From Streptomyces silvae (GTDB lineage Bacteria; Actinomycetota; Actinomycetes; Streptomycetales; Streptomycetaceae), in the NCBI RefSeq assembly GCF_016745505.1, contig NZ_JAERUC010000039.1, positions 1 to 64,000 on the forward strand: a stretch of 64,000 nucleotides of DNA, read 5' to 3'. The notes beneath the pieces were generated by a model. The model saw nothing but the letters and a program-made list of their open reading frames with translations. It did not search any database and was not told where the DNA came from. Of the stretch, positions 6,521-48,661 are shown one piece after another; positions within the stretch are counted from its first letter, which is position 1; each line of letters begins with the position of its first letter. Made by a program: the position numbers and the translations under genes.

Positions 6521-7774
6521 TCAGCCTTCGAGCGGGCCGGCCGGGTCCGTGCCGACGGCGACGACGTCGCCGATGACGATGACCGCCGGGGGGCGTACCT
6601 CTTCCGCGACGACGCGCTCCCCGACGTTCCCGAGGGTCGCGTCGACCCTGCGCTGGGCCGCCGTGGTGCCCTCCTGGACCAGGGCCACCGGGGTGTCCGG
6701 GGACTTGCCGTGGGCGATGAGCGCCTGGGCGATGGCGCCGATCTTGTCGACGGCCATCAGGAGGACGAGGGTGCCGCGGAGCTGTGCGAGGGCCGCCCAG
6801 TCGACGAGGGAGCGCGGGTCGTCGGGTGCCACATGGCCGCTGACCACGGTGAACTCGTGCGCGACGCCGCGGTGGGTGACGGGGATCCCGGCCGCGCCCG
6901 GCACGGAGATCGAGCTGGAGATGCCGGGGACGACCGTGCAGGCGATGCCCTCGGCGGCCAGCGCCTGGGCCTCCTCCATGCCGCGGCCGAAGACGAACGG
7001 GTCGCCGCCCTTGAGGCGGACCACGGACCTGCCGGCCTTGGCGTGGTCGATGAGCGCCTGGTTGATCGCCTCCTGCGCCATGAACCGGCCGTACGGGATC
7101 TTCGCCGCGTCGATCACCTCGACGTGCGGCGGGAGCTCGTCGAGCAGGTCGCGGGGGCCGAGCCGGTCGGCGATGACCACGTCGGCCTCGGCCAGGAGGC
7201 GCCGGCCGCGGACCGTGATCAGGTCGGGGTCGCCGGGGCCGCCGCCCACCAGGGCGACGCCGGGGGCGCGGGTGCGGTGGTGCGGGGCGGCGAGGGTGCC
7301 GTCGCGCAGGCCCTCCACGATCGCGTCGCGGACGGCGGCGGAGTGCCGGGGGTCGCGGCCCTGCGAGGTGGTGGTGAGGACGGCGACGGTGATGCCCTCG
7401 CTGCGGCCGGTGGCCGGCGTCCAGGCGGTGGCCGCCTCCGCGTCGTCGCTCCGGACGCACCAGGTGCGGGTGCGCTCGGCCTCGGCGGACGCGGCGTCGT
7501 TGGCGGCGGCGTCGGACGACGCGACGAGGGCGTACCAGGTGTCGGCGAGGTCGCCGTCCTGGTACCTGCGGCGCTCCCAGCGGATCTCGCCGGTGTCGGC
7601 CATCGCCTCGACGGAGGCGGTCGCGGACGGGGAGATCAGGGTGATGTCGGCTCCGGCCGCGATGAGGGCGGGCAGCCGCCGCTGTGCGACCTGGCCACCG
7701 CCGACGACGACGACGCGGCGCCCGTTCAGGCGCAGTCCGACGGGGTAGGCGGGGTGATCGTCATACTCGGCCAT
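6521..7774 (-). CDS. cobA: Siroheme synthase-like fusion: precorrin-2 dehydrogenase + uroporphyrinogen-III C-methyltransferase
   Basis: The 417-residue fusion has an N-terminal NAD-binding Met8/CysG-N type domain (VVVVGGGQVAQRR near residue 20), which oxidises precorrin-2 to sirohydrochlorin and may insert iron. The C-terminal SUMT domain starts near residue 172 (GGGPGDPDLITVRG, then VVRLKGGDPFVFGRG and VVPGISSSISVPG) and adds two methyls to uroporphyrinogen III with S-adenosylmethionine. This is the branch point to siroheme and cobalamin, which fits the cobT and cobL homologues upstream. The ATG at 7772-7774 has AGGAG about 12 bases upstream. The names cobA and cysG are both used for such fusions. 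Confidence 0.88.
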   Translation of the reverse strand: MAEYDDHPAYPVGLRLNGRRVVVVGGGQVAQRRLPALIAAGADITLISPSATASVEAMADTGEIRWERRRYQDGDLADTWYALVASSDAAANDAASAEAERTRTWCVRSDDAEAATAWTPATGRSEGITVAVLTTTSQGRDPRHSAAVRDAIVEGLRDGTLAAPHHRTRAPGVALVGGGPGDPDLITVRGRRLLAEADVVIADRLGPRDLLDELPPHVEVIDAAKIPYGRFMAQEAINQALIDHAKAGRSVVRLKGGDPFVFGRGMEEAQALAAEGIACTVVPGISSSISVPGAAGIPVTHRGVAHEFTVVSGHVAPDDPRSLVDWAALAQLRGTLVLLMAVDKIGAIAQALIAHGKSPDTPVALVQEGTTAAQRRVDATLGNVGERVVAEEVRPPAVIVIGDVVAVGTDPAGPLEG

Positions 7775-8001: not shown

Positions 8002-11000
8002 CTACTTCTCCGTGACACCCGCGGCGTCGAACGTCGCCACCTCGTGCATCGCGCGGGCGGCGCTCTGCACGATGGGCAGCGCCAGCAGGGCGCCCGTGCC
8101 CTCGCCGAGGCGGAGGTCGAGGTCGACCAGGGGGCGCAGGCCCAGCTTGTTGAGCGCGGCGACATGGCCGGGCTCCGCGCTGCGGTGGCCAGCGATGCAC
8201 GCGGCGAGCGCCTCGGGGGCGATCGCGCGGGCGACGAGCGCCGCCGCACCGGCACTCACGCCGTCCAGGATCACCGGCGTACGGAGCGACGCGCCGCCCA
8301 GCAGGAAGCCCGCCATCGCGGCGTGCTCCAGGCCGCCGACCGCGGCCAGGACCCCGATCGGGTCGGTCGGGTCGGGCTGGTGCAGGTCCAGGGCCCGGCG
8401 TACGACATCGACCTTGCGGGCGTGCATCTCGTCGTTGATCCCGGTGCCGCGGCCGGTCACCTCCGCGGGGTCCATGCCGGTGTAGACACAGATCAGGGCG
8501 GCCGACGCGGTGGTGTTGGCGATGCCCATCTCACCGGTGAGCAGGCCCTTGTTGCCGGCCGCGACCAGGTCGCGGGCGGTCTCGATGCCCACCTCGATCG
8601 CCGCGAGCACCTCTTCGCGGGTGAGGGCGGGACCGGTGGTGAAGTCGGCCGTCCCGGGACGGACCTTCCGGGGCAGCAGGCCGGGGGTCGGCGGCAGTTC
8701 GCACGCCACACCGACGTCGACGACGCAGACCTCGGCGCCGACCTGGGCGGCGAAGGCGTTGCAGACGGCGCCGCCACCGAGGAAGTTGGCGACCATCTGG
8801 CCGGTGACCTCCTGCGGCCACGCGGTGACGCCCTGGGCGTGGACGCCGTGGTCACCGGCGAAGATCGCGACGGCGGCGGGCTCCGGGACGGGCGGCGGGC
8901 AGAGCCGGGAGAGCCCGGAGAGCTGGGCGGAGATGATCTCCAGCATGCCGAGCGCGCCGGCGGGCTTCGTCATCCGCTTCTGGCGCTCCCACGCCTCGCC
9001 GAGCGCCTTGGCGTCCAGCGGGCGGATGCCGGCGATGGTCTCCTGGAGGAGGTTGTGCGGCTCCTCGCCGGGCAGGGCGCGGCGGCCGTACGTCTCCTCG
9101 TGGACGACCCAGGACAGCGGGCGGCGCTTGGACCAGCCCGCCTGCATCAGCTCGGGCTCCTCGGGGAACTCGTCGACGTATCCGACGCAGAGGTAGGCGA
9201 CGACTTCGAGGTGGTCGGGCAGGCCGAGTGCGCGGACCATCTCCCGCTCGTCGAAGAAGCTGACCCAGCCGACGCCGAGGCCCTCGGCGCGGGCGGCGAG
9301 CCACAGGTTCTCGACGGCGAGCGCCGAGGAGTACGGGGCCATCTGCGGCTGGGTGTGCCGCCCCAGGGTGTGGCGGCCGCCGCGGGTCGGGTCGGCGGTG
9401 ACCACGATGTTCACGGGGGTGTCGAGGATGGCCTCGATCTTCAGTTCCTTGAACTGCTTGGCCCGGGCCTTCGGGAGCGACTTGGCGTAGGCCTCGCGCT
9501 GGCGCTGCGCCAGTTCGTGCATGGAGCGGCGGGTCTCCGCGGAGCGGATGACGACGAAGTCCCAGGGCTGGGAGTGGCCGACGCTGGGCGCGGTGTGGGC
9601 GGCCTCCAGGACGCGGAGGAGGACCTCGTGCGGGATGGGGTCGCTGCGGAAGCCGTTGCGGATGTCGCGCCGTTCACGCATGACGCGCAGGACGGCCTCG
9701 CGCTCGGCGTCCTCGTAGCCGGGGGCGGGCGGGGAGGCGGGGGCCTCCTCGGCGGCCTCGTCACCTTCTGCGGCCTCGGGCTGTACCGGGGCGGCTTCGG
9801 CGGCCTCGGGCTGCTCCGTCGCCTCGACGGGCAGGGCCTCCCGGGGGGCCTCCTCGGCGGAGTGCGGGGGCTCGGCCTCCGGGGTCTCGATGATCTCGGG
9901 CCCGGTGCCGGGCTCGAGGTCGGCCTGGGCCTCGGCTTCGGGCTCCGTGAGGATCTGGGGTCCGGCCTGCGGTACGACGAGGAGCTCGGGCGCCGGCTCG
10001 GGCACCGCGACGGGCTCGGGCAGAATCTCGGGCTGCTGGACGGCCACCGGCTCCGGCGCCTCCAGGACCTCGGGCGCCACAGACGCCTCGGGCGCCACGG
10101 CCTCCGGAGCGGGCTCGGGGGTCTGCTCGGGCTCGGCGGCGGGGGCGGTCGCTCCAGCGACGGGTGCCTCGGCCACGGGCGCCTCGGCGACGGGGGCCGG
10201 GGCGAGGTGGGGAGCCGTGGGTACGGATCCCTCCACGGGGACGAACTGTCCGGCCGGCTCGGCCGGGGCGGCCTCGACGGGCGGCACGACGGCTGCCTCG
10301 GCGGGGGCGCCGGCCTGGACGGGCGCGGGAGCCTCGGCCACGGCGTCGGCGGGACGCGCCTCGGCCGCCTCCGGCTCCGGCTCGACGGAGGCCTCCGGCT
10401 CGACGGATGCCTCCGGCGCCACGGGGGCTTCCGGCGCCACGGCTGCCGCGGGCTCCGGCTCCGGAGCGACCGTTTCTGCGGGTGCGACGGGCGGAGCGGT
10501 TGCGACGTCCGGGGCGGGTGCGGCGTCCGGGGCAGGTGCGGCGGGTGCCGCCGCCTGGACGGGTGCGGCTGCCTCGACGGGTTCGGCGAGCTCCGCGGGC
10601 GCCACCTGCGCGGCGGGCGCCTCGGCCTCCACCACCGGCTCGGGAGCAGTCGCGGGCTGGACTTCCGCCACCGGCTCGGGCTCCGTCACCGTGGCGGCCT
10701 CCACCGGCTCGGGCACGGCAGCAGGCTCGGTCACTGCAGCGGGCTCAGGAGCGGCAGCGGGCTCAGGCGCAGCCGCCGGCTCAGGTGCCGGCTCAGGTGC
10801 CGCGACCGGTTCCGGTGCGCCCCACGCGGACGCACCCTGGGGCGGGATCTCCCCCAGCTGCGGGCCCGGCAGCAGGGTCGCGTCGGCGGCCGGGGCCTCG
10901 AAGTACTCGGGTCCCACCGTCGGCGGACCCGCGTGCCGTACGGGCATCGGGTTCTGCGGGCCGGCCGGCCCCCGGTCCGCGAGCGAGCGGACCACTCCGC

Positions 11001-36401: not shown

Positions 36402-36422
36402 GCGGCCGGGGCGCCCCCTACC

Positions 36423-36442
36423 CGTAGTACTTCGGAGCTACG
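36423..36442. promoter_or_regulatory. Candidate operator of the hydrolase-kinase operon
   Basis: CGTAG-N10-CTACG lies about 95-115 bases upstream of the first gene of the operon. The operon encodes its own LuxR-type response regulator, a natural candidate ligand. Confidence 0.4.
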
Positions 36443-36497
36443 TTCCAGGTGCGCTCCTGAGCGGGACGCCGACCACGCTGCCCGCTCCCTACCTTCG

Positions 36498-36523
36498 GTA
36501 CCGGATTCGACGAGACCCGGTAC
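36498..36523. promoter_or_regulatory. Second palindrome near the operon start
   Basis: GTACCGG-N12-CCGGTAC ends six bases before the GGAAGGAC ribosome-site region of the first gene. It could be an operator or an mRNA hairpin that hides the ribosome site. Confidence 0.45.
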
Positions 36524-36536
36524 GGAAGGACTTCCC

Positions 36537-37496
36537 ATGGCGCCCAGCCCCCGGAGCGGTCGCGCGCGGCGCGCCCTGCTCACCGCGTTCGTCACCGCGT
36601 CCGTGGCGCTGCCGGTGTCGGGTGCGGCCCGCCCCGCGGCCGTCGCGGCCCCCGCCCCGGCCGCCGTGGCCCCGCTGGACTCGGCCGGGTCCTCCGCGCT
36701 GGAGGCCAGGTACGCGGCCGGGCGGGCGGAGATCCGGGCGGCGCGGGACATGGCGGCCCGCCACGGAGACCGGCGCCGGGCCACCGCGCTCACCGCCATG
36801 GCGCGCCCGGGCCGCACCTTCCTGATGTTCGACGGGCGCGACGGCGGGCGGGGCGTCGAGGTCGTCGGCGATCTGTCCCGTGCGCGGCGCATCGCCGTAC
36901 TGGTGCCGGGGGCGGGCGTGGACCTCGATCACTACGGGCGCTTACGGCGGGGCGCCGGGGCTCTGCTCGACGAGCTGGGCAGCGGGTCGGCCGTCGTCGT
37001 CTGGCTCGGCTACCGGACGCCCGCCATGCTCAGCCCCGCGGCCATGACCCCGGGCCGGGCCGACGAGGCGGCTCCCGCCCTGCGGTCCTTCGTACGGGAG
37101 TTGAGCGCGGCCAAGCCCTCGGCCCGGGTCTCCCTGCTGTGCCACTCCTACGGCTCGGTGGTCTGCGCCCGGGCCGCGTCCGGGCTGGAGGTCGCGGACC
37201 TCGTGCTGTACGGGAGCCCCGGCACCGGTGCCGGGAGCGCGGCCGCCCTGCACACCCGGGCCACGGTGCGGGCGGGCCTGGGCGGGGACGACTGGATCGC
37301 GCGGGTCCCGCACGTCGCCGTTCCGCTGCCGTACGGCACGGCCGGCTTCGGGACGGACCCGGTGGCCCCGGAGTTCGGCGCCGAGGTCTTCGACGCGGGC
37401 GGCGCCGGGCACAGCGGCTATCTGGAGCCCGGTTCGGTCTCGCTGCGCAGCATCGCCGGGATCGTCGCGGGGACGGCCGGGGGCGGCCATGCGTGA
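36537..37496 (+). CDS. Secreted alpha/beta hydrolase (DUF1023-like), contains a TTA codon
   Basis: The 319-residue protein has a signal peptide with basic start (RSGRARRALLTAFVTASVALPVSG). Its alpha/beta-hydrolase core carries the nucleophile elbow VSLLCHSYGSVVC. VAVLVPGAGVDLDHYGRL is the oxyanion strand, and AGHSGYLEPGS carries the catalytic His. The substrate is unknown. Codon 136 (36942-36944) is TTA, the rare leucine codon read by the bldA tRNA in Streptomyces, so production may depend on developmental stage. It is the first of four overlapping genes. The next gene starts eight bases before its stop. Confidence 0.82.
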   Translation: MAPSPRSGRARRALLTAFVTASVALPVSGAARPAAVAAPAPAAVAPLDSAGSSALEARYAAGRAEIRAARDMAARHGDRRRATALTAMARPGRTFLMFDGRDGGRGVEVVGDLSRARRIAVLVPGAGVDLDHYGRLRRGAGALLDELGSGSAVVVWLGYRTPAMLSPAAMTPGRADEAAPALRSFVRELSAAKPSARVSLLCHSYGSVVCARAASGLEVADLVLYGSPGTGAGSAAALHTRATVRAGLGGDDWIARVPHVAVPLPYGTAGFGTDPVAPEFGAEVFDAGGAGHSGYLEPGSVSLRSIAGIVAGTAGGGHA

Positions 37497-38676
37497 CCTC
37501 GTACGGCGCGACGGTGTGCGCGCCCTGGTGCGGCGGATCGACGCGGCGACGCCCCGGGACCGTGACCGTGCGGTCGACGCGCTGCGCGCCTTCGCCATCC
37601 TGGGCGTGGTCTGCGGCCACTGGCTGGTGACCGCGCTGGTCGCCGACAGCGGCACGGTGCACGGCGCGAGCCCGCTCCGGTACATGCCCCGGCTCGCGCC
37701 GGTCTCCTGGGTGTTCCAGACCCTCGCCGTCTTCTTCCTGGTGGGCGGCCAGGTGGGCGCGAAGGGGTACGCGTCCGCCCGGGCCAGGGGCGAGTCCTAC
37801 GGGCACTGGCTGCGGGTCCGGATGCTGCGGCTGTTCCGGCCGGTGGCCGTCGTCACCGCCGTATGGGCCGTGGCGGCCGGCGTGATGCTGGTCTCGGGGG
37901 TGGACACGGGGACGGTACGCGCGCTGGGCAAGCTGGTCTGGTCCCCGCTGTGGTTCCTGCTGGTGTTCGCGGTGCTGACCGCGGCGACCCCGCTGGTGGC
38001 CCGGCTGCACCCGCTCTGGCCGCTCACCGTCGTCCTGTACGTCGACCTGTTCCGGCTGGGGCTCGACGGACCGGCCGCCCTGGGCTGGATCAACGTGGCG
38101 GCGGGCTGGCTGGTCCCCTACTGCCTGGGGGCGGCCTGGGCACGCGGCGGGCTTAGCGACCGCCGGACCGGGTGGGTGCTGCTGGCGGGAGGCACGGTGA
38201 CCACGGCGGGGCTGGTGCTGTTCGCCGGGTATCCCGCCTCCATGGTCGGGGTGCCGGGCTCCACGCTCTCCAACCTCGACCCGCCGACCCTGGCCGTCGT
38301 GACCTTCGGCCTCGCCCAGTGCGGTGCGGCCCTGCTGCTGCTCGGACGCCTCCGGCGGGCGCTCGCACGGCCCGCCGTGTGGGCGGTGGTGGCCCTGCTG
38401 AACCTGTCCGCGATGACCGTGTTCCTGTGGCACCAGACCGCGATGATCGTGGTCACGGCGAGCGCCCTGTTCCTGTACGGCCCGCTCCCCGGCCTGCACA
38501 CGGTCCCCGACACCCCCGGCTGGGTGTTCGCCCGGCCGGCCTGGCTGCCCGTGTTCGCCCTGGTGCTGCCGGTCTGCCGGGCCGCGTTCGGGGCGTACGA
38601 GCGGCGGGGCGGCGGCCGTTCGGCGGTCGTACGGTCCCATTCCCCCGCCCGGACCCCGGAGTCGCACCATGCCTAA
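37489..38676 (+). CDS. Membrane acyltransferase, acyltransferase-3 family
   Basis: The 395-residue protein has about ten membrane spans and the acyltransferase-3 opening DRAVDALRAFAILGVVCGHWLV, with the conserved Arg and His of the family. LAVFFLVGGQVGAKGY and LNLSAMTVFLWHQTAM are also typical. Such enzymes O-acylate sugars, lipids or peptidoglycan at the membrane. The start overlaps the hydrolase gene by eight bases and the end overlaps the kinase gene by eight bases, so all are made together. The C-terminus ends in His/Ala. Confidence 0.85.
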   Translation: MRDLVRRDGVRALVRRIDAATPRDRDRAVDALRAFAILGVVCGHWLVTALVADSGTVHGASPLRYMPRLAPVSWVFQTLAVFFLVGGQVGAKGYASARARGESYGHWLRVRMLRLFRPVAVVTAVWAVAAGVMLVSGVDTGTVRALGKLVWSPLWFLLVFAVLTAATPLVARLHPLWPLTVVLYVDLFRLGLDGPAALGWINVAAGWLVPYCLGAAWARGGLSDRRTGWVLLAGGTVTTAGLVLFAGYPASMVGVPGSTLSNLDPPTLAVVTFGLAQCGAALLLLGRLRRALARPAVWAVVALLNLSAMTVFLWHQTAMIVVTASALFLYGPLPGLHTVPDTPGWVFARPAWLPVFALVLPVCRAAFGAYERRGGGRSAVVRSHSPARTPESHHA

Positions 38677-39967
38677 GCTGAGCGCCATGACGGGGGTCGG
38701 GGTACGGGTGAGGGGGGTGCTTCGCGGGCTGCCGCGGATGCTGCGCGAGGACCTGTGGACCGCTCCCGTCGATCCCGTACCGCCCGTGGGCGCGCCCGGA
38801 TCGCCGGTCTGGCGGCCCGCGTTCGGGATGCTGCTGTTGCTCGGGGCGACGCTCGTGGCCGTATGGCACGTGCCCGACCTGGTGCCCCGGGGTGCCGCCG
38901 TACCCGAGTACGCGGTGCTCCTGGTCGTGTGCCAGGCGCTGGCGCTCCTCGCCGGCATGTGGCAGCCGCTGTACGCCTGGTGGGCCTCGCTGGGCCTGAT
39001 GGCCGTCAGCGTGCGGATCGCGGAGTCCGCGATGACGCCCGGCGAGCTGTTCCCGTGGACCGGTCCCGAGATGGCGTTGCAGGGCGGGGCGCTGTTCCTG
39101 CTGGCGCTCCGGGTCCATCCGCGCCGGGCGGTCCTCGCGCTCGGCCTGAGTCTGCTGGCGGGGCTGGTGAGCAGCGCCTTCACCACCCAGGCCCATCACT
39201 ACTCCCTGGACGTCGGCGCGCCGGTCGTCATCACGGCCGTGGGGACCGGCGCGGCGCTGCGCGCGCTGAAGGTGGCCCGCAGCCAGCTCGTCGTGCAGTC
39301 CGGGCTCACGGAGGAGGAGCGGTCGCGGCGCACCCTCCTGGAGGAGCGCAACCGGATCGCGCGTGAGCTGCACGACGTGGTCGCCCATCACATGTCGGTG
39401 ATCTCCATCCAGGCGCAGGTCGCCCCGCATCTGGTCGAGGCTCCCTCCGACGAGCTCCGGGAGAACCTCGCCGGCATATGGGAGAACGCCGTGGAGGCGC
39501 TGGCCGAACTGCGCCGGGTGCTCGGTGTGCTGCGCTCGGAGGACGCCGTGGCGGACGGGGTGCGGCACGCCCCTCAGCCCTCCCTGGACAGCCTGGGCGA
39601 GCTGATCGGCACGGTGCGGCGCGCGGGCGTCGGCGTCACGGCGAAGACGACGGGCACGCCCCGGCCGCTGGCGCCGGGGGTCGGGCTGTCGGCGTACCGC
39701 ATCGTGCAGGAGGCGCTCAGCAACGTGATGCGGCACGCCCCCGGGGCGCGCGCCCGGGTGGAGGTCGGCTACCACTCCGCCGCCGTCACCGTCCGGGTCA
39801 CCAACACCGCTCCGGAGGCGCCCGCCCCACGCGCGGGCGGAGTCGGGCACGGGCTGCTCGGCATGCGCGAACGCACCGCCATGCTGGGCGGTGACCTCAT
39901 TCACGGCCGTACCCCCGGCGGGGGTTACGAAGTACTGGCGACGCTCCCCCTGGAGGGCCCCGCATGA
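38669..39967 (+). CDS. Sensor histidine kinase (HisKA_3 type)
   Basis: The 432-residue kinase has four to five N-terminal membrane spans (residues about 50-205). A dimerisation and phosphoacceptor helix follows, LLEERNRIARELHDVVAHHMS, with His235 as phosphorylation site. The ATPase domain has the N-box EALSNVMRHA and the G-box GVGHGLLGMRERTAMLGG. It should autophosphorylate and pass the phosphate to the response regulator encoded next, whose start overlaps its stop. There is no large extracellular sensor, so it may sense the membrane state. Confidence 0.9.
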   Translation: MPKLSAMTGVGVRVRGVLRGLPRMLREDLWTAPVDPVPPVGAPGSPVWRPAFGMLLLLGATLVAVWHVPDLVPRGAAVPEYAVLLVVCQALALLAGMWQPLYAWWASLGLMAVSVRIAESAMTPGELFPWTGPEMALQGGALFLLALRVHPRRAVLALGLSLLAGLVSSAFTTQAHHYSLDVGAPVVITAVGTGAALRALKVARSQLVVQSGLTEEERSRRTLLEERNRIARELHDVVAHHMSVISIQAQVAPHLVEAPSDELRENLAGIWENAVEALAELRRVLGVLRSEDAVADGVRHAPQPSLDSLGELIGTVRRAGVGVTAKTTGTPRPLAPGVGLSAYRIVQEALSNVMRHAPGARARVEVGYHSAAVTVRVTNTAPEAPAPRAGGVGHGLLGMRERTAMLGGDLIHGRTPGGGYEVLATLPLEGPA

Positions 39968-40632
39968 CCATCCGCGTGCTGATCGCCGACGACCAGATGA
40001 TGGTCCGCCAGGGCTTCACGGTGCTGCTGAACGCCGAGCCCGGCATCGAGGTCGTCGGTCAGGCGGTGGACGGCGTGGACGCGCTGGAGAAGGCGGCCGA
40101 ACTCGCCCCGGACGTCGTCCTGATGGACATACGGATGCCGCGCCTCGGCGGCATCGACGCCACCCGGCGGCTGACCGCGGCTCCGGGCGCGACCGTCCGG
40201 GTCCTCGTGCTGACCACGTTCGACCTGGACGAGTACGTCTACGAGGCGCTGCGCTCGGGCGCCTCCGGCTTCCTGCTGAAGGACGCCTCCGCCGCCGAAC
40301 TCGCCCAGGCCGTACGGGTGGTGGCGGCCGGCGACGCCCTGCTCGCCCCGAACATCACCAAGCGCCTGATCGCCGAGTTCTCCCGGGTGAGCAGGGGACC
40401 GCGCCCTCCCGGCAGGGAGCGCGTCGGCGCTCTCACGGAGCGCGAGACGGAGGTGCTGTCCCTCATCGCGCAGGGCCTGTCGAACGCGGAGACAGCGGTG
40501 CGCCTGGTGGTCGCGGAGCAGACCGTGAAGACCCATGTGAGCCGGATCCTGGTGAAGCTGGGGCTGCGCGACCGGACCCAGGCGGCGGTGTTCGCGTACG
40601 AGTCGGGGCTGGTGCGCCCGGCCGGCTACTGA
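39964..40632 (+). CDS. LuxR/NarL-family response regulator
   Basis: The 222-residue regulator has a receiver domain with Asp9/Asp10, phosphoacceptor Asp55 (VVLMDIRMP), Thr in LVLTTFD and Lys in FLLKDAS. A C-terminal LuxR helix-turn-helix follows at about 155-215 (LTERETEVLSLIAQGLSNAETAVRLVVAEQTVKTHVSRIL). All phosphorylation residues are present. It is the partner of the kinase encoded just upstream (four-base overlap). The palindromes upstream of the first operon gene are candidate targets. Confidence 0.92.
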   Translation: MTIRVLIADDQMMVRQGFTVLLNAEPGIEVVGQAVDGVDALEKAAELAPDVVLMDIRMPRLGGIDATRRLTAAPGATVRVLVLTTFDLDEYVYEALRSGASGFLLKDASAAELAQAVRVVAAGDALLAPNITKRLIAEFSRVSRGPRPPGRERVGALTERETEVLSLIAQGLSNAETAVRLVVAEQTVKTHVSRILVKLGLRDRTQAAVFAYESGLVRPAGY

Positions 40633-48130: not shown

Positions 48131-48661
48131 TCAGCCCAGCCGCATGTGATGGAGCATCAGCAGTCCGGCCGCCATGTTGGCCGCCGGTATCTCACCGCGC
48201 GCGATCATGTCCGGCACGAGCTTGAGCGGGACCCACTCGCGGCGCGAGGACTCGAAGTCGTCCGCCGGATGACCCGTGTACGTCGCCTCCCTGGACCAGA
48301 AGAGGTGGTGCCGGGCGTCGACGAGGCCGTTGGCCGGTTCCACGGTCATCAGCGGGTGCAGCTCGCCGGGGCGCCATCCGGTCTCCTCCTCCATCTCCCT
48401 CGCCGCCGCGGCGGCGATGTCCTCGCCGTCCTCCACCACGCCCGCAGCGAGCTCCCAGCCCCAGCTGTCGGTGATGAAGCGGTGCCGCCACAGGAGCAGG
48501 ACCTCGTTGGCGTCGTTGACGACGGTCGCCGCGGCGACGGCCCTGAGCCGTATGAGGAAGTGGTCCAGGTGCCGGCCGTCGGGGAGAACGACGTCCGCCA
48601 GGTTGACCCGGAACCAGCGATTCTCATACACGGTCTGTTCGTTTAAGTTCGTCCACTGCAC
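48131..48661 (-). CDS. NUDIX hydrolase (ADP-ribose pyrophosphatase-like) with a TTA codon
   Basis: The 176-residue enzyme contains a full Nudix box, GVVEDGEDIAAAAAREMEEETGW, with the Mg-binding Glu residues. The N-terminal VYENRWFRVNLADVVLPDG is typical of ADP-ribose/nucleoside-diphosphate-sugar pyrophosphatases. The GTG start has a GGAAGG site 12 bases upstream. Codon 6 (48644-48646) is TTA, so full translation may need the bldA tRNA. A start at the in-frame GTG a few codons later would avoid it but has no ribosome site. The TPR regulator gene lies just upstream on the same strand. Confidence 0.85.
   Translation of the reverse strand: MQWTNLNEQTVYENRWFRVNLADVVLPDGRHLDHFLIRLRAVAAATVVNDANEVLLLWRHRFITDSWGWELAAGVVEDGEDIAAAAAREMEEETGWRPGELHPLMTVEPANGLVDARHHLFWSREATYTGHPADDFESSRREWVPLKLVPDMIARGEIPAANMAAGLLMLHHMRLG

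Follow-up and report, generated by a model that had tools for sequence, protein, structure and literature searches.

The closest described counterparts of the system treated here are SCO3641/3640 and SCO3639/3638 of Streptomyces coelicolor, two tandem kinase-regulator pairs that stand unnamed in the consulted part of the table in PMC9739842. According to the sections drawn on from PMC3123327, SCO3638, SCO3640 and SCO3641 are induced by bacitracin and not by moenomycin or vancomycin, and deletion of SCO3638-3641 leaves bacitracin resistance unchanged. Excerpts of PMC3098853 report unchanged antibiotic production after deletion of SCO3638/39 or SCO3640/41, and place the two pairs at about 50% (regulators) and 30% (kinases) identity to AbsA1/AbsA2, while SCO3636 is given as a P450 in an excerpt of PMC6838473. 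Here we analyzed a 64,000-nucleotide stretch of Streptomyces silvae (contig NZ_JAERUC010000039.1, positions 1 to 64,000, hereafter the window; genome of 7.96 Mb in 207 contigs), which carries a four-gene set at 36537-40632 encoding a hydrolase, an acyltransferase, a sensor kinase and a response regulator. Whereas AbsA is a global antibiotic regulator, the partners of the two-component system here are the hydrolase and the acyltransferase. The operator of MacRS (SCO2120/2121), another Streptomyces system, is TGAGTACnnGTACTCA; the motif found here differs from it, reading GTAGTAC...GAGCTAC, and is tied to its own operon. MacRS is similar in being, in the consulted part of PMC9739842, a NarL-type system whose operator is defined and whose targets are membrane proteins or lipoproteins.

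A sequence-only reading of the window had proposed that the four genes form one operon, that they join a cell-surface enzyme pair to its own two-component system, and that a TTA codon in the first gene acts as the control point of the whole. The first two proposals are supported by the results described below; the third is taken up further on. The genes are the following:

36537..37496, forward strand: hydrolase gene, a putatively secreted alpha/beta hydrolase, PF06259 (open reading frame of 319 residues, Pfam, predicted structure)
37489..38676, forward strand: membrane acyltransferase gene, PF01757 Acyl_transf_3 (Pfam, hydropathy)
38669..39967, forward strand: sensor histidine kinase gene, HisKA_3 and HATPase_c (Pfam)
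39964..40632, forward strand: NarL-type response regulator gene, Response_reg and GerE (Pfam, NCBIfam)

As their coordinates show, successive genes overlap by 8, 8 and 4 bases in the window. To compare this arrangement across relatives, 97 loci were collected (the window, 17 named and 79 fetched regions, the latter chosen as carrying the hydrolase gene), and removal of the duplicates L088 and L090 left 95, of which 93 are from Streptomyces and two from Microbispora; these are best matches rather than every orthologue. Streptomyces atroolivaceus is the nearest named relative, at 83% in the hydrolase-gene comparison. Protein-level matches occurred in 293 of 295 genomes of the genus, in a strong and a weak class, the latter (mostly about 1e-30 to 1e-50) being taken for other family members; the first two genes, used as a DNA query at E <= 1e-200, had matches in 169 of 392.

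The order hydrolase-acyltransferase-kinase-regulator is complete in 91 of the 95 loci. The exceptions are L022, with a weakly similar kinase and regulator on the opposite strand; L023, where neither was found at the locus; L091, where the kinase survives only as a remnant; and L013 (Streptomyces sp. SirexAA-E), which has kept part of the kinase and the final third of the regulator (8122-8512) together with the hydrolase, the acyltransferase and the promoter motif. The kinase-regulator pair does not follow in the two Microbispora loci. With start codons picked by a simple rule, the hydrolase and acyltransferase genes overlap at all 93 measured loci, by exactly 8 bases in 76 and by 4 in 11, the two largest values (-1167 and -47) looking like start-calling errors. 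Kinase and regulator overlap at 88 of 92 loci, 86 of them by 4 bases; acyltransferase and kinase overlap at 50 of 91 and lie no more than 50 bp apart at 85 of 91. Since both order and overlaps are conserved, the operon structure is a trait that extends well beyond this strain. A literature search for two-component system, acyltransferase and hydrolase returned, among the matches listed, no title on this operon.

The region upstream of the operon is conserved as well. Both palindromes marked there by the earlier reading are present and recur upstream of the operon in relatives, as parts of a larger arrangement:

36418..36442, forward strand: operator-like motif of general form TACCCGTMRTACYTGAGAGCTAC, including palindrome 1 (36423-36442); present at 92 of 92 testable Streptomyces loci
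36447..36457, forward strand: conserved block AGGTGCGCTCC (column profile over 88 loci, alignment)
36461..36476, forward strand: conserved block GCGGGACGCCGACCAC, -35 region (column profile, alignment)
36490..36495, forward strand: -10-like box TACCTT, 72 bp from the motif start (column conservation and spacing, with the transcription start inferred only)
36492..36529, forward strand: inverted repeat with palindrome 2 (36498-36523) at its core, which as RNA pairs with the ribosome site (covariation, fold)
36524..36530, forward strand: ribosome binding site GGAAGGA (sequence)

Palindrome 1 sits within the 25-base motif, and the window and its near relatives carry a better dyad, GTAGTACTTCGGAGCTAC. 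The motif was found at 88 loci with a score of at least 25 within 330 bp upstream, and at L024, L123, L161 and L148 after the search was widened to 1500 bp; L144 is cut by a contig end, leaving 92 testable Streptomyces loci. It is absent upstream of both Microbispora loci. The motif is trailed at nearly fixed distance by AGGTGnGCTCC, GCGGGACGCCGACCAC and TCCRTARCTTC, forming a block of about 78 bp in which the TA of the -10-like box falls at +72 at 89 of 92 loci (shorter by 1-2 bases in L106, L129 and L141), and 5' of the motif the column information falls to background. At L139, tandem CATACCTGT copies lie directly 5' of the promoter motif and run into it, perhaps as extra half-sites.

A second copy of this promoter was found just 3' of the regulator gene in 11 more distant loci, with its motif 84-85 bp upstream of the GTG that starts a second kinase gene. 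From motif to -10-like box this copy, too, spans 72 bp (10 of 11 aligned); the second kinase has no visible ribosome site and is probably translated leaderless. At L156, a second regulator comes after this second kinase (HisKA_3), and then the beginning of a P450 gene. The 71-residue P450 fragment on its own matched no Pfam family; it is called a P450 because it is 76% identical to the recognized P450 (PF00067, 94.6 bits) encoded behind the second pair of the window genome. There, the second pair and its P450 are unlinked to the operon and lie on contig C72, with a kinase 67% identical to that of L156 and a degraded motif copy before it (39 of 54 consensus matches; 18.4 bits, E 0.011).

The apparent likeness to SCO3638-3641 consists in the second kinase that follows the regulator in the 11 distant loci, the second regulator and the P450 start having been read in L156 only; the difference is that in the window genome the second pair and P450 stand on another contig and not beside the operon. 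Because the gene order of the distant-group loci fits SCO3636-SCO3641, we take the window system to be of the SCO3641/3640 type, a likely assignment in which orthology is read from gene order. This assignment points to envelope stress as the signal. No paper came up in a literature search for SCO3642, SCO3643 or SCO3637. The present analysis would give this two-component system, which has been little studied and is probably of the bacitracin-induced SCO3641/3640 type, a candidate operator, a promoter and likely effector enzymes.

For a wider search we built a model, R1, from 53 of 103 promoters (43 of 92 of the first type and 10 of 11 of the second); the window sequence is part of it and scores 81 bits by construction. 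The model has a match at E <= 0.01 in 114 of 121 genomes, with scores in part as high as those of the first promoter and in part lower, as for the second; among those read, L217 and L218 are of the first type and L219 and L221 of the second. In the window's own genome five sites reach at least 16.5 bits; four belong to promoters of two-component genes or hydrolase-acyltransferase genes, and the fifth is within a coding reading frame. This fifth site, at 7403-7453 of the window (16.5 bits), lies within a tetrapyrrole-methylase reading frame and is probably a chance match. A wider regulon in the same genome, sought with a pattern allowing up to three mismatches, was rejected: of three further sites, those on C80 and C185 lie inside long open reading frames and that on C64 is available only as sequence, and the reversed pattern gave 9 matches against 4 for the real one, lending no support to a regulon.

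Several of the promoter copies stand before recognizable relatives of the operon's genes. In genome G085, a draft of about 150 contigs, L091 (1371-4517) holds the hydrolase, acyltransferase and regulator with a 37-residue kinase remnant, and a full kinase, 69% identical to that of the window, lies on another contig (L217, 3506-4995) behind a full copy of the first-type promoter. Between promoter copy and kinase, L217 still has the ribosome site and the first part of the hydrolase gene, a remnant of 27 codons; its 10-kb stretch gave no weighty match to the regulator, hydrolase or acyltransferase. Kinase and regulator that are apart and share one promoter type fit co-regulation by this system. 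L091 had been considered as a counter-case, with the motif but no kinase, and was dropped once the kinase was found elsewhere in G085 behind the same promoter. On contig C188 (L086, 5572-12562), the genes on one strand comprise a second hydrolase-acyltransferase pair (42% and 50%), a further hydrolase (40%) and a kinase with its regulator (44% and 62%); the second hydrolase has a partial motif 46 bp upstream of it (16.5 bits, E 0.045). In L220 (2509-7100), the motif lies between a hydrolase-acyltransferase pair (44% and 52%) and a divergent kinase-regulator pair (45% and 70%). On contig C33 (L215, 1389-5237), an ABC transporter, a kinase and a regulator form an operon with a similarly laid-out promoter (23.6 bits, E 2.7e-4). 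That promoter carries the palindrome GTCGTACCCCGGTACTAC.

We consider it probable, from comparison of sequences, that this conserved Streptomyces operon serves the envelope and is under the control of its own response regulator. The membrane acyltransferase would acylate an extracytoplasmic substrate, and the secreted serine esterase would take off or process acyl groups; the membrane-embedded kinase would read the state of the envelope, and the NarL-type regulator would bind the 36418-36476 block and activate, rather than repress, the promoter. A related promoter would drive the paralogous kinase-regulator pair, and translational coupling would keep the operon genes in step.

Several observations weigh against this proposal. 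The right half of the motif differs between first and second promoters. Motif scores of 25-28 overlap the chance range, L106 and L127 having unrelated sites at 27 and 28; loci with such low scores were counted because of the position of the motif and the blocks downstream of it. A transcript starting about 7 bases past the -10-like box, near 36503, would leave the left arm of the inverted repeat untranscribed. Finally, L013 keeps the motif although at this locus the kinase is nearly lost and the regulator cut to its last third, so that another regulator, for example the second one, might bind there. This last case also favors the strongest alternative, namely that a different global regulator or a sigma factor binds the block, the kinase-regulator pair being a passenger in the operon. 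Consistent with it, the block extends into the -35/-10 region, as a core promoter would, and the similar-layout promoter on C33 precedes a transporter operon. However, the promoter copies read outside the 95 loci precede two-component genes, hydrolase-acyltransferase genes or, on C33, transporter genes with two-component genes of their own, and in G085 the kinase moved together with a promoter copy. We therefore regard the passenger explanation as unlikely, and autoregulation by the operon's own regulator as the better account of the conserved block.

The remaining proposal of the sequence-only reading concerns a codon that is indeed present in frame:

36942..36944, forward strand: TTA, codon 136 of the hydrolase gene (sequence, orthologue alignment)

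A tRNA-Leu with anticodon TAA, tRNA-Leu(UAA), is encoded in the window genome. By a crude gene call based on GC content at third codon positions, TTA occurs in 2 of 51 window genes and 2 of 1,672 leucine codons. This share is near the figure of about 2% of genes given in the abstract of PMC11836424, and one TTA gene of such kind is expected per 64 kb. The other TTA gene of the window is at 48131-48661 on the reverse strand, an open reading frame of 176 residues with TTA at codon 6.

Alignment of the orthologues showed that codon 136 is TTA at 5 of 95 loci (the window, L010, L012, L089 and L107) and is missing from the other 90, including the nearest relative, L126, which has TTC; two further close relatives have CTA (L009) and CTG (L087). 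The column holds 51 phenylalanines and 44 leucines, with 12 changes between the two on a tree built by a quick method from the first two codon positions of acyltransferase and regulator, which leaves 38 of 92 inner branches open. On this tree TTA requires at least five changes, and all five TTA rows lie inside one clade of 17. By nucleotide-step parsimony the midpoint root has TTC and the fork between the window and L126 has TTA; the common ancestor of the six closest loci is assigned TTA or CTA, with a later change in three of them.

A mutational route could account for this pattern. TTA is one nucleotide step from TTC and two from CTG or CTC. Over four genes and 95 loci, 14 of 15,818 leucine codons are TTA; in the 40 columns that are 15% or more phenylalanine, TTA makes up 9 of 543 leucine codons, against 5 of 15,260 elsewhere (odds ratio 51, p 1e-10), and 4 of 499 remain when column 136 is left out (odds ratio 25, p 1e-4). 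The 150 columns with a leucine majority together hold one TTA. Columns filled in fewer than 30 loci were excluded, and the p-values ignore relatedness and rest on 14 codons. Given the concentration of TTA in phenylalanine-rich columns and the alternation of phenylalanine and leucine at 136, the codon is best read as a one-step derivative of a phenylalanine TTC. Column 136 still exceeds the other phenylalanine-rich columns (5 of 44 against 4 of 499 leucines as TTA, Fisher p 2.8e-4), so some retention of TTA in the clade is possible. A literature search joining TTA codons and phenylalanine substitution with Streptomyces and bldA found none.

These data bear on the explanation in which TTA gates the operon through bldA, confining the hydrolase and, by coupling, the three downstream genes to late development. 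The in-frame codon, the tRNA-Leu(UAA) gene, the conserved overlap with the next gene, the excess of TTA at this one column in five loci and the parsimony state of the closest six all accord with it; the first two features are also what the gene shares with the bldA-dependent adpA, actII-ORF4 and redZ. In those genes, however, TTA is an established control in the parts of the sources consulted, whereas here conservation is lacking: the codon is absent from 90 of 95 loci, the six closest include one each with TTC, CTA and CTG, TTA undergoes at least five changes on the tree, and the five TTA rows sit within one clade and are not independent. Gating of the operon at this codon is accordingly not supported by the alignment and appears improbable. 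At the genus level TTA is real but incidental, adding at most a strain-level dependence on bldA. In this strain such dependence is possible, with the downstream genes lost through translational coupling; the codon, lineage-specific and at a position of phenylalanine/leucine exchange, may delay output until the bldA tRNA is present. The analysis thus offers a simple mutational account of where TTA codons arise, and advises caution against treating every TTA as a bldA switch.

The weakest alternative, that the palindromes are punctuation, the first a terminator of the upstream LysR-like gene and the second a chance repeat, is very improbable: a stem capped by a TTCG loop could form at palindrome 1, about 20 bases past the upstream stop codon, yet this palindrome is kept genus-wide and where the upstream sequence looks unrelated (L010, L013, L014 and L107, for example), and the arms of palindrome 2 covary.

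Palindrome 2, with its 5' arm at 36498 and its 3' arm at 36517, belongs to a longer repeat, CCTTC.GTACCGG...CCGGTAC.GAAGG, whose right arm takes in most of the ribosome site. Over 92 loci a tolerant stem score was 8.29 for true arm pairs against 6.69 for permuted ones (maximum of 200 permutations 7.03), an excess that holds separately in the near (73 loci) and distant (19 loci) groups; an example of the covariation is the pair GTTCCAGA/TCTGGAAC of L117. Exact arms of at least 6 bases occur at 62% of the 92 loci against 39% in permuted pairs; among the 52 divergent loci the count is 26, against a permuted mean of 16 and a maximum of 26, so that this measure is weak and the tolerant score clearer. 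For RNA starting at 36490 the folding energy is -21.9 kcal/mol (z -2.15; 9 of 200 shuffled sequences did as well). Once the first 13 bases are removed, the leader does worse than every one of 200 shuffles; a role for the hairpin therefore requires a transcription start no later than 36492. Covariation of the two arms points to a hairpin in the RNA. More tentatively, and with rather less confidence than we give to autoregulation, three controls may be stacked at this locus: a genus-wide operator that serves both paralogous kinase-regulator pairs, a covarying 5' hairpin in which the ribosome site of the hydrolase is hidden and which gates the operon by coupling, and a TTA codon confined to some lineages, with TTA in Streptomyces generally entering mainly at TTC/leucine positions and not at fixed leucines.

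The protein assignments that underlie these readings are as follows. In Pfam, the hydrolase matches PF06259 Abhydrolase_8 at 135.9 bits (curated cut-off 20.5) and the acyltransferase PF01757 Acyl_transf_3 at 101.5 bits (cut-off 31), and a HisKA_3 kinase adjoining a REC-GerE regulator marks the pair as a NarL-type two-component system. In NCBIfam, hydrolase and acyltransferase had no match, the six matches of the kinase all fell under the cut-off, and so did those of the regulator in the best 25 of 94. Hydropathy gave one N-terminal hydrophobic segment in the hydrolase, nine in the acyltransferase and four in the kinase, which makes the earlier labels of secreted hydrolase and membrane acyltransferase reasonable as predictions. 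A sequence search of solved structures gave no clear relative of the hydrolase (best E 0.44). Its predicted structure, of moderate confidence (mean predicted local distance difference test score, pLDDT, 70.7), shows an alpha/beta hydrolase fold resembling small lipases and carboxylesterases, the best matches being 6nkc (Z 15.2, root-mean-square deviation 2.9, 164 residues) and, tied with it, Bacillus subtilis lipase A (LipA, 1i6w; Z 14.9, deviation 2.8, 164 aligned). This modeled likeness to lipases leaves the substrate undefined and the esterase role putative. At the nucleophile elbow, CHSYG is invariant in 17 of 17 hydrolase sequences.

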